From Streptomyces sp. JB150 (GTDB lineage: Bacteria > Actinomycetota > Actinomycetes > Streptomycetales > Streptomycetaceae): a DNA stretch of 64,000 nucleotides. The position numbers and the translations under genes are program-made. Numbering within the stretch: the stretch's first letter is position 1; each line of letters starts with the position of its first letter. The stretch is from the NCBI RefSeq assembly GCF_011193355.1, contig NZ_CP049780.1, forward strand, positions 5,987,698 through 6,051,697. Reading direction: 5' to 3'. This document shows positions 38,105 to 52,734 of this stretch, piece by piece. Under the pieces are notes generated by a model. It worked only from the letters and a program-made list of their open reading frames with translations. It did not search any database and was not told the DNA's origin.

Positions 38105-38184
38105 CCCTGGTGAACCCGTATACGTTGATTGAAACTTGAGCGACGTCGCCCGTGCGGCGCTCGTGGCCTCAACGGGCCAGCAGG

Positions 38185-38220
38185 CAGGGGTGGTGCCGTG
38201 TCGGCGCAGCACCACCCCTG
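38185..38220 (-). terminator. Terminator of the AidB-like gene
   Basis: Perfect 12-bp arms CAGGGGTGGTGC (38185-38196) and its complement (38209-38220) with a 12-nt loop start 19 nt after the stop codon. Confidence 0.75.
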
Positions 38221-38238
38221 TCGACGTGTCCGGCCTGC

Positions 38239-44460: not shown

Positions 44461-44505
44461 CCAAGAGCCCCCGTCCCTCCGAACGGAGGAACAGGGGCTC
44501 TTCTC
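44461..44505 (-). terminator. Long hairpin terminator after the tRNA
   Basis: On the minus strand AAGAGCCCC pairs with GGGGCUCUU at the base and CCUCC with GGAGG under a GUUC loop, about 18 bp with two G-U pairs. It starts a few nt after the tRNA 3' end. Confidence 0.8.
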
Positions 44506-44507
44506 GG

Positions 44508-44577
44508 AGCGCCGGGCAGGCCTTGCACCTGCATCTCCCCGCAGGAAGCGGGGCGTCTTTCCTTGGACCACCAACGC
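44508..44577 (-). tRNA. Divergent tRNA-Gly (anticodon UCC)
   Basis: The minus strand folds into a cloverleaf: acceptor GCGUUGG/CCGGCGC (two G-U pairs), U8, 3-bp D stem GUC/GAC with loop CAAGGAAA (G18G19 present), anticodon stem CCCCG/CGGGG with loop CUUCCUG, so anticodon UCC at 44546-44544, a 4-nt variable loop and T stem GCAGG/CCUGC. Glycine identity features are present: U73, G1-C72, C2-G71, G3-C70, C35 and C36. Unusual points are the T loop UGCAAGG (G instead of U55), the 3-bp D stem and no encoded CCA. It has its own promoter and terminator. Confidence 0.7.
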
Positions 44578-44618
44578 CTGACCGGTGACCGGTGTTCTCC
44601 GGCGGCCGGGCAAGATCG

Positions 44619-44648
44619 ACTATACCCCAGGGGCGCGGTGCTGTCCAA
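44619..44648 (-). promoter_or_regulatory. Near-consensus promoter of the tRNA gene
   Basis: TTGGAC (44643-44648), an 18-bp spacer and TATAGT (44619-44624) on the minus strand. The predicted start near 44612 gives a 35-nt leader containing ACCGGTGACCGGT before the tRNA. Confidence 0.75.
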
Positions 44649-44964: not shown

Positions 44965-45380
44965 GTGACCTTGGGACCGCGACTGCTCGACCGGTGGCGG
45001 CTCGGAGCCGAACTGGGACGCGACGCCAGGGCCACGGTGTACGCCGCCGTGGACGAGCGCAACGGGGAGCCACGGGCGGTCAAACTGATCCACGCCCCAC
45101 CGGCGGCGGATCCTGGGCGTGCTGGACGGGCTCGCGTACGCCACGGCGTGCCCTTGGAAGACGCCACGGGGATCGTGCACCGAGACCTGGAACCGAGCAA
45201 CATCATGCTGACTCGGACTTTGGGACGGCCGAGGCCGAGCTGGCTCGCCTGCGCGTGCACGAGCGGAAGATGGGCATGGACCGCGGGCGGGACGCCCCTC
45301 CACCCAGCGAGGTCGCCGCCCGTGCGCTGGCCGAGATCCGCAGGAGCATGCCGGCGGCACCACCCGAGGGGGAGGACTGA
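44965..45380 (+). pseudogene. Remnant of a Ser/Thr protein kinase gene, fused to a small gene end
   Basis: GTG 44965 starts a normal kinase N-terminus (LLDRWRLGAELGRDARATVY, then AVDERNGEPRAVKLIH). The piece VLDGLAYA appears in another frame, and GIVHRDLEPSNIML returns in the first frame with the catalytic-loop Lys changed to Glu and about 80 residues missing. From about 45205 the frame that continues encodes DSDFGTAEAELARLRVHERK and a charged C-terminus stopping at 45380, probably a separate small protein whose start was lost. The glycine loop is also degenerate. It is not expected to be an active kinase. Confidence 0.8.
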
Positions 45381-45963
45381 ATGGCGGTACGGCCTTCATG
45401 GCGCAAGCCCATCCCCCTCGGCCTGGCCGTCTCGCTGGAGGGGCAGCTCACGGTCGCGGCGCCGCTGCTCGGCGCGGCCAACATCGCGCTGCTGATGAGT
45501 GGTGGCGGCCGACGCGGACAAGTTCCGCTGGCCGGATCCTGCGCTGTTCGCCCTGACCCTGGGCGCGCTGTTCCTGATCAGCGCTGTCCACGGAGGCGTA
45601 CTCGCGCGCGGGCACCTGTACTCACGCGGAGATGTCGAACAGTGGTGGGGGCCGCTGTCGGAGATGACGGAATCACGACGGGAGCGGCTGATCAGCGACC
45701 AGCGCGCCGACTTCGACCTGTGGCGCAGCCGCAGCACGCGCGCCAACCTCCTGTACAACCTGGGCGTCCTGTGCCTGGCCGTCGGGAGCGGACTGGCCCT
45801 GGTCCCGCCCCACGGCACGGCCACACCGGTGTGGCGCTGGCTCGCCGCCGGAACCGTGGCCGCGTTCTGCGGGCTGGCGGTCCTGTCCTGGACGGCCCGT
45901 CTGGTACGTGGCGTGGTGGACGCGTGGGCGGTCCTGCGCATACGCCACAGTGATGAGAGCTGA
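45381..45963 (+). pseudogene. Frameshifted membrane protein gene
   Basis: ATG 45381 directly follows the previous stop and opens a frame with GLAVSLEGQLTVAAPLLGAA and NIALLMS. Near 45497 the coding frame changes to one that reads VAADADKFRWPDPALFALTL and continues with three more hydrophobic segments to 45963. One extra G in ATGAGTGGTGGCGG would explain the break. The joined protein would be about 194 residues with four membrane spans. A GTG at 45499 could restart translation, so a partial product is possible. Family not recognised. Confidence 0.65.
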
Positions 45964-50994: not shown

Positions 50995-52734
50995 ATGGCG
51001 GCGGCAGACGGGACGGGAGGCCGGACGGCAGACGGGACAGGACGCCGGGCGGCCGGCGGAGCCGGGGACCGGGCAGCGGACCGGGCCGGCCCTGTGGTGC
51101 GCACGCCGTACGGGGCCGTACGCGGCCGGTACGAGCACGGTGTCGCCGTGTTCCGGGGCATCCCGTACGCGGCACCCCCCTTCGGGCCCCGCCGCTTCCG
51201 GCCGCCGGTCCCGCCCGAGCCCTGGCCGGGGATCCGGGACGCCCTCGCCTTCGGTCCCACCCCGCCCAAACCGCCGTACTCCGAGGCCTTCGCGCAGTAC
51301 CTGTCCGACCCGGTCGTGCCCGGCGACGACTGTCTCAACCTCAACGTGTGGACGCCCGAGCCGGGCCCCGCAGCCCGCCTCCCGGTGCTCGTCTGGCTCC
51401 ACGGCGGCGCGCTGACCAGGGGCTCCTCCGGCGTGCCGGTGTACGACGGACGCACCTTCGCGCGGGACGGCGTCGTCTGCGTGTCGGTCAACTACCGGCT
51501 CGGCGTCGAGGGCTACGGACTGTTCCCGGACGCCCCCGCCAACGCCGGTCTGCGCGACCAGCTCGCCGCCCTGCGCTGGGTGCGCGAGACCATCGAGGCC
51601 TTCGGCGGCGACCCGGACCGGATCACCCTGGCCGGGCAGTCCGCCGGCGCCATCAGCACCGGCGCCCTGCTCGCCGCGCCGCAGGCCCAGGGCCTGTTCC
51701 GGCGGGCCGTCCTGCAGAGCGGGGCGCCCGAGGCCGCCGACCGGGACAAGGTACGGCGCATGGTGCGCCGGATGGCCGCCCGGCTGCGGATCCCCGCCAC
51801 CGCCGAGGCCTTCGCCGCCGTCGACCGCGAGCTGCTGCTGCGCACCCAGGCCGAGGTGGGCCGGCTCGGCGGCCCCGTCCTCGGCGGACCCGCCTTCGGG
51901 ATCGTCGTCGACGGCGACCTCGTCCCGCGCGACCCGCTCGAAGCGCTGGTCGAGGGGGAGGCCGCGGCCGGCGCCGAACTGCTCATGGGCTGGACCCGTG
52001 ACGAGTACCGGCTCTGGCTGGTCCCCGGCGGCCTGCTGGAGCGCGTCGACCGGCTCGGCGCGGTCGCCCTCGCCGGTGCCATGGCCCGCTGCCACGCCGG
52101 CCACGAGGTGCCGCGCGGCTACCGTGCCCTGCGGCCCGGCGCCGGCACCGCCGAGATCGTCGGCCAGATGATCACCGACCACCTGCTGCGCCGCCCGTTG
52201 CACCGCCTGGCGGACGCCCGCCCCGGCACGTCGTACGTCTACGAGTTCGCCTGGCCCTCCCGGCTGCCCGGCCTCGGCGCCTGCCACGCGCTGGAGCTCG
52301 GCTTCGTGTTCGACAGCGGTGACGTGCCCGAGTCGGCGAAGCTGGCCGGCCAGGGCGCCCCGCGGGAACTGGCCGAGCGGATGCACCGGACCTGGGTGCG
52401 GTTCGTCACCGACGGGGACCCGGGCTGGGAGCCGTGGGACGCCGCCCACCCGGTGCGCGTCTTCGGCGAGACGACCGAGCCGGGGGCGGACGGTTCCCCC
52501 GCGCTGCGCGCGCCCTACACGGCGTTCGGTCCGCGGGACGCCGAGCTGGCGCTGTGGGCCGCGGCCGACGCCCTCGCCCGGGAGTCCACACCCGCGTCGG
52601 GTCCGACTCTGGCTCCCGCGTCACCCACGCGCGGGGGGGAACTGCGCTCGGCGGTACGGCGGTTCCACCGCTCCGCGGGCGCGCGCCGGACTGATCACCC
52701 GGCACCCGGCTCCGGGCCTACTCGGCGGCGGTGA
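50995..52734 (+). CDS. Type-B carboxylesterase/lipase family protein
   Basis: The 579-residue alpha/beta hydrolase has the type-B blocks VAVFRGIPYAAPPFGPRRFR, DDCLNLNVWTP, VLVWLHGGALTRGS, and the nucleophile elbow TLAGQSAGAIS. A likely acid residue lies in GWTRDEYRLW and the His in GACHALELGFVF. The N-terminal 30 residues are Gly/Ala/Asp-rich and not conserved; ATG 50995 has GAGGAG 10 nt upstream. No export signal is seen. It hydrolyses carboxylic esters; natural substrate unknown. Confidence 0.87.
   Translation: MAAADGTGGRTADGTGRRAAGGAGDRAADRAGPVVRTPYGAVRGRYEHGVAVFRGIPYAAPPFGPRRFRPPVPPEPWPGIRDALAFGPTPPKPPYSEAFAQYLSDPVVPGDDCLNLNVWTPEPGPAARLPVLVWLHGGALTRGSSGVPVYDGRTFARDGVVCVSVNYRLGVEGYGLFPDAPANAGLRDQLAALRWVRETIEAFGGDPDRITLAGQSAGAISTGALLAAPQAQGLFRRAVLQSGAPEAADRDKVRRMVRRMAARLRIPATAEAFAAVDRELLLRTQAEVGRLGGPVLGGPAFGIVVDGDLVPRDPLEALVEGEAAAGAELLMGWTRDEYRLWLVPGGLLERVDRLGAVALAGAMARCHAGHEVPRGYRALRPGAGTAEIVGQMITDHLLRRPLHRLADARPGTSYVYEFAWPSRLPGLGACHALELGFVFDSGDVPESAKLAGQGAPRELAERMHRTWVRFVTDGDPGWEPWDAAHPVRVFGETTEPGADGSPALRAPYTAFGPRDAELALWAAADALARESTPASGPTLAPASPTRGGELRSAVRRFHRSAGARRTDHPAPGSGPTRRR

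Follow-up and report, generated by a model that had tools for sequence, protein, structure and literature searches.

A divergent glycine tRNA of Streptomyces that belongs to a dispersed family and may not serve decoding

Few bacterial tRNAs that act outside translation have been described to our knowledge. The tRNA-Gly that serve the cell wall in staphylococci have an altered T loop, bind EF-Tu weakly, and are substrates of Fem enzymes, and bldA of Streptomyces is a decoding tRNA-Leu(UAA); the glycine tRNA family described here resembles bldA in being a special Streptomyces tRNA and differs from it in including members that appear unfit for normal decoding. In the cited sections on the staphylococcal wall tRNA-Gly, three hallmarks are given, A49-U65 in place of G49-U65, A51-U63 in place of G51-C63, and loss of the GG at positions 18–19 (PMC4052509). 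Bacillus cereus tRNA-Other, in the portion of its description cited here, is a pseudo-tRNA with a Trp anticodon that is poorly charged in vitro and lies inside longer RNAs (PMC3399842); the Streptomyces family would be similar to it in being tRNA-shaped and outside translation, whereas it keeps glycine identity and forms a tight promoter-tRNA-hairpin unit. DhpK and Orf11 (BD-12) are Gly-tRNA users among the FemX-like GNAT-fold transferases and provide a precedent for the diversion of Gly-tRNA into small molecules by Streptomyces, while the sections cited mention no dedicated tRNA for them (PMC12945691). DasR binds at a tRNA-Gly of S. coelicolor, which the cited text leaves unspecified, upstream of SCO3679 (PMC4398421).

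The window, which is the whole stretch of 64,000 nt that was analysed, carries on its minus strand at nt 44461–44648 a compact unit in which a sigma-70-like site is followed by a leader, a tRNA, and a hairpin. Its features are as follows.

44642..44647, minus strand: -35-like hexamer TGGACA (promoter scan)
44619..44624, minus strand: -10 hexamer TATAGT (promoter scan; -10 box recurrent among family copies)
44578..44618, minus strand: leader of about 40 nt, starting with CGATCTTG, that runs from the -10 box to the 5' end of the tRNA (family leader profile)
44506..44577, minus strand: divergent tRNA-Gly(UCC) (ARAGORN, Rfam RF00005, own covariance model R1, fold)
44463..44502, minus strand: terminator-like hairpin of 18 bp, 3 nt past the annotated tRNA end (fold)

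ARAGORN called a tRNA-Gly(tcc) at 44506–44577 on the minus strand, and the Rfam tRNA model RF00005 covered 44508–44577 at 39.8 bits (gathering score 29), the lowest of the 69 above-cut-off tRNA matches in a whole-genome search; the tRNA was absent from a window-wide scan at gathering scores run with fast filters. It measures 70 nt to U73, plus one C that is kept family-wide, and CCA is not encoded. For the promoter expected by the original prediction, a sigma-70-like site was found, TGGACA-17-TATAGT (44647–44619), the sole site within the 801 bases scanned, against a mean of 0.0 sites (sd 0.1) in shuffled sequences. As for the expected terminator, the hairpin at 44502–44463 is strong (-36.2 kcal/mol, z -6.7, equalled by 0 of 200 shuffles), but it has no T-run and was missed by the consensus terminator scan, whose single site lay inside the tRNA on the opposite strand. 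In an insertion-site comparison, the VOC gene at this locus was conserved in relatives and, among the matches listed, G017 alone continued from the VOC gene into the tRNA; a clean empty site was not obtained because the upstream DNA differs in the other relatives. Elsewhere in the window, nt 38143–38224 (plus strand) matched the Streptomyces sRNA Scr6106 (RF02827, 63.9 bits), and a 98-nt tRNA-Ile(gat) called by ARAGORN at 51593–51690 (minus strand), absent from the Rfam searches of window and genome, is probably false. An ORF at 44965–45495 (plus strand) begins like a serine/threonine protein kinase before the likeness fades by eye, and is perhaps a truncated kinase gene.

The cloverleaf, as drawn by eye, has the acceptor GCGUUGG/CCGGCGC with U4-G69 and U5-G68, a D stem of 3 bp (GUC/GAC), the D loop AAGGAAA with its GG (G18, G19) kept, a 7-nt anticodon loop CUUCCUG with U33, UCC, and U37 beside the anticodon, and the T loop UGCAAGG (U54 G55 C56 A57 A58), so that the two acceptor G-U pairs, the short D stem, and G55 were all as originally predicted. 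This cloverleaf is the minimum-energy fold, with an unremarkable energy (z -1.5, 19 of 200 shuffles equal), in which C32, which can pair with G38, forms that pair. The published glycine identity elements G1-C72, C2-G71, C35, C36, and U73 (listed in the cited part of PMC9976931) are all present, in agreement, together with the ARAGORN and Rfam results, with the predicted cloverleaf and glycine identity. Since its 7-nt loop has U33 and UCC, the window copy by itself could decode GGA. The T stem, also read by eye, contains A51-U63, where the canonical tRNA of the genome has G51-C63. A51-U63 is shared with the S. aureus non-proteinogenic tRNA-Gly, unlike which the window tRNA has G49-C65 instead of A49-U65 and keeps the D-loop GG (cited sections of PMC4052509). 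As only A51-U63 of the three hallmarks is present, it is not classed as staphylococcal-type; by analogy, it may act like the staphylococcal wall tRNAs.

A search of the genome (7.3 Mb, one contig) for a second, canonical tRNA-Gly(UCC) found one at G000:C1:2511757 with the T loop TTCGATT, and genes for Gly(CCC) and Gly(GCC) were also present. The window tRNA is therefore not the sole tRNA-Gly(UCC) of its genome. S. aureus likewise has glycine tRNAs in addition to an ordinary set, according to the sections cited (PMC4052509, PMC9976931). The Streptomyces family differs in its many scattered copies and in the 6-nt anticodon loops of some species.

A near-identical tRNA body recurs across many Streptomyces genomes, and the window tRNA is thus more than a chance resemblance. 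With a 188-bp query and a cut-off of E ≤ 0.001, matches were obtained in 113 of 199 Streptomyces genomes. Covariance model R1, built from 39 distinct family copies, scored the window copy at 104.1 bits and the next best tRNA at 45.8 in a calibration on the window plus 40 of the 63 tRNA loci of this genome. At E ≤ 1e-6, R1 matched 230 of 393 Streptomyces genomes with 1 to 9 matches each, the nine being in G244, where one may be of another type and at least 8 are strong; seven of the 230 had a weak best match (E above 1e-12), which gives 223/393 genomes with a strong match and 170/393 without. A broader model, R2, matched 111 of 199 genomes, all at E ≤ 2.5e-18, with the remaining genomes unmatched at 1e-9, and found 198 copies, 1–6 per genome, with at least 2 in 48 genomes. 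Presence and absence of the family are sharply divided between genomes. In a class-wide sample, R1 matched 16 of 26 genomes of the genus and 0 of 220 others, and among the 111 genomes and 17 genera of the Streptomycetaceae, R2 found 22 genomes from 3 genera, six of these genomes lying outside Streptomyces. Seventy plasmid records carried the tRNA (68 from Streptomyces, 2 from Streptantibioticus), one of them, from S. clavuligerus, at up to eight places, and in some genomes copies lay near the chromosome ends, as seen from their positions, not counted. Laboratory strains with copies include S. lavendulae CCM 3239 and S. clavuligerus ATCC 27064. No record in a phage collection matched the family and no viral contig matched one exact pattern of it. 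In the open-licence literature, no paper was recognisable as describing this dispersed family.

At four loci (L152, L100, L116, and L095), two or three copies in the same orientation lay about 1 to 7 kb apart, and in the first three of these the predicted genes between neighbouring copies were unrelated. In genus g102, related tRNAs sharing the anticodon core CUUCC were observed (L388, L389, L390, and L394), three of them with the T loop TTCGAGT and the D loop AAGC; they are a possible intermediate in the origin of the family.

Among the 58 distinct 72-nt forms of the tRNA many positions are invariant, most of the underlying loci having been retrieved with a pattern in which part of the anticodon loop and of the T arm is set in advance. 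The elbow is near-invariant, with the D loop AAGGAAA, the T loop UGCAAGG, and the stem pair A51-U63. Position 37, which the pattern leaves free while fixing its neighbours, is a pyrimidine in 57 of the 58 forms. In a structure-fitted alignment, 99.5% of the stem cells were paired and 52 cells showed double changes, against a shuffled mean of 14.8, a number that none of 500 shuffles attained; of the five covariation measures, two were unremarkable (63/500 shuffles as high for the pairs showing a double change, 270/500 for further pair types). The tRNA fold is under selection. Across 168 distinct copies, a -10 box and a GATC-led leader recurred, and the window leader was partly kept. For the leader profile, the copies that have a single GATC in range were used (128), so that its GATC is there by construction; in these copies the -10 box read T72 A70 T46 A51 G48 T76 (%), and no -35 conservation was observed across family copies. 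The 65 nt 3' of the tRNA folded better than one shuffle each in 167 of the 168 copies, and the hairpin sequences differed between copies.

The surroundings vary from place to place, the commonest neighbour, tsaD, adjoining 13 of 156 loci. The 150 nearest proteins, taken from 163 non-redundant ones among 212, shared no common Pfam family, the top one being MFS_1 in 6, and toxin, transposase, integrase, and FemAB families were all absent from the 25 commonest of the 146 families; in the case of FemAB this is a difference from the FemX-like Gly-tRNA users DhpK and Orf11. Among the 25 of 38 PADLOC families covered, no defence model occurred in more than 2 of the 150 proteins, and one PHROG, phrog_2034, was present in 5. 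With neither a phage match nor an integrase or transposase among the 25 commonest neighbour families, a tRNA of a mobile element or phage was rejected as an identification.

The strongest evidence comes from comparison with relatives picked for their low scores. From the R1 search of 393 genomes, 26 with a low best score were selected, with 52 matches, 30 loci of which were retrieved. In 24 of the 26, the copies read (29 loops among the 52 matches) had anticodon loops of 6 nt, namely CNNCCG (CAUCCG, CUGCCG, CAGCCG, and CAACCG), in which U33 is missing, in 15 genomes and CUCCAA in 9; the other two genomes had damaged or truncated copies (L321, L331). No match in the genomes with 6-nt loops went beyond 82 bits, 7-nt copies being above 93. 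One CAACCG and one CAUCCG copy folded with a 6-bp stem and a 4-nt loop, and a CUCCAA copy with 5 bp and a 6-nt loop. Judged from their sequences, the CNNCCG and CUCCAA loops are unfit for normal decoding. In the commonest subfamily, by contrast, a 7-nt loop was present in 30/30 BLAST-found loci. The glycine determinants G1-C72, C2-G71, the CC of the loop, and U73 were kept in all parsed copies of four overlapping locus sets (30/30, 29/29, 28/28, and 128/128), and the T loop was UGCAAGG in 214 of 215 counts of parsed copies, the exception being UGCAAGC. Outside the parsed sets were L321, L331, the 73-nt copy L302 with the T loop UGCGAGC, and the four g102 copies (L388–L390 and L394), which failed the script filter.

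Since relatives have 6-nt anticodon loops while the glycine identity set and T loop are kept, a glycyl-tRNA outside translation is favoured; the pattern is that expected of a tRNA needing glycylation and recognition of its elbow and not codon reading. On balance, the window tRNA is probably one copy of a dispersed glycyl-tRNA family that does not serve decoding. Such an RNA would be transcribed alone, processed at its ends, supplied with CCA, and glycylated by the usual glycyl-tRNA synthetase, and would be used poorly by EF-Tu and the ribosome. Its near-invariant elbow would be recognised by a protein that either accepts the glycine or senses it. A tRNA-dependent glycyl transferase, whether FemX/GNAT-like or of another kind, is the likeliest candidate, and the glycine supply would be set by tRNA copy number. 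The presence of G18 and G19, that is, the absence of the staphylococcal-type GG loss, was counted against this reading, as were the 7-nt loop of the window copy, the lack of a common neighbour family and of any link to FemAB counts, the two unremarkable covariation measures, the four divergent g102 copies, and the damaged or truncated copies in two of the 26 low-scoring genomes.

Among the alternatives, a regulatory or decoy RNA ranks first, yet is unlikely. It would mimic a tRNA, charged or uncharged, and tie up GlyRS, a tRNA-acetylating toxin, a tRNA nuclease, or a modification enzyme without donating glycine. Multiple stand-alone copies, some of them plasmid-borne and, in certain genomes, close to the ends of the chromosome, and the near-invariant elbow would suit such a role, as would the reading of the glycine acceptor identity U73 and G71 by the TacT toxin (in the cited part of PMC9976931); however, the neighbour proteins held no toxin among their 25 commonest Pfam families and no defence model in more than two (25 of 38 families covered), charging accounts more easily than most decoy roles for the CC kept at positions 35 and 36, and a T-box target would require the anticodon, which varies.

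Rather less probable is a surplus tRNA-Gly(UCC) of translation, which would read GGA with drifted loops tolerated by the ribosome, its copies providing a conditional GGA dosage comparable to that of bldA and UUA. The U33 and UCC of the 7-nt window loop and the 7-nt loops that are the rule in the commonest subfamily are what it would predict, while it accords poorly with the canonical tRNA-Gly(UCC) already in the genome, with the 24 species whose loops are 6 nt long and in which a high-scoring 7-nt copy is missing, with the pyrimidine at position 37 in 57 of 58 forms, and with G55.

That the window tRNA supplies FemX with glycine for the peptidoglycan bridge appears doubtful; the odds overlap with those of the glycyl-tRNA family outside translation, of which this role is a special case. 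A51-U63, as in the staphylococcal wall tRNAs (cited sections of PMC4052509), and FemAB-family genes in 198/198 Streptomyces genomes are in its favour, set against the 170 of 393 genomes without a strong match to the tRNA. In a comparison between 108 genomes that have the family and 83 that lack it, from which seven of the 198 genomes (<95% complete) were omitted and in which the weak match of G167 was scored as absent, FemAB domain counts were unrelated to it (mean 3.62 with, 3.61 without, p 0.68); at least 2 FemAB genes were found in 62/108 and 54/83, respectively. With counts equal in both groups, FemAB co-occurrence was rejected as a sign of a partner, and no partner gene emerged from the neighbour families or the FemAB counts. 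Thus, of the non-translational donor originally proposed, the place outside translation gained strong comparative support from the second, canonical gene and from 6-nt loops with identity kept, whereas the wall-bridge role lost ground, as FemAB occurs in 198/198 genomes and strong matches to the tRNA in 223/393.

A second odd tRNA-Gly(UCC) of the same genome, exposed by the model calibration at G000:C1:3590347-3590419 (L057:148-220) and missed by ARAGORN, is a better candidate for that role. A Gly(GCC) gene follows 82 nt after its end, and it has the D loop AGUAGYA, without GG, the T loop UGCRAUY (TGCAATT in this genome), and A51-U63, thereby sharing the two staphylococcal hallmarks of A51-U63 and GG loss (as given in the cited part of PMC4052509). 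Its T stem pairs by eye only with a bulged U, and this bulged T arm was not formed in the free fold of one copy. BLAST with this tRNA and its leader matched 198/198 Streptomyces genomes, 197 at E ≤ 1.3e-15; the match in G157, at 1.1e-4 only, may be an ordinary tRNA-Gly. With its own model, 26/26 genomes of the genus in the class sample scored at least 101 bits, and all other genomes among the rows listed at most 74.8, the level of ordinary tRNA-Gly. In the Streptomycetaceae it was found in 83 of 111 genomes and 15 of 17 genera, no genome of g109 or g106 being matched at the threshold used. Because it is nearly universal, like FemAB, and the window family is strong in 223/393 genomes, the second odd tRNA would fit the FemX-donor role better, should FemX be served by a special tRNA at all.

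A pseudo-tRNA in decay, or the remnant of an integrated element, for which the lowest above-cut-off Rfam tRNA score in the genome, the scattered locations, and the few damaged copies (L321, L331) might speak, is hardly credible given the compensatory changes in the stems, the recurring -10 box and hairpin, a body near-invariant across the genus, no match in the phage collection or of one pattern in viral contigs, and the absence of transposase and integrase from the 25 commonest of the 146 families around the copies.

The glycyl-tRNA family outside translation may be part of a wider picture, which we put forward tentatively: in Streptomyces, a family that would have left translation wholly, with 6-nt loops in some species, may feed or signal to an elbow-reading protein, and together with the nearly universal bulged tRNA-Gly(UCC) there would be two non-translational lineages in one genus. 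If true, a main antibiotic-producing genus would possess a large, clear-cut family with natural variants that split charging from decoding, through which the diversion of aminoacyl-tRNA from the ribosome would become directly testable, and which could point to an unrecognised pathway of glycine transfer.
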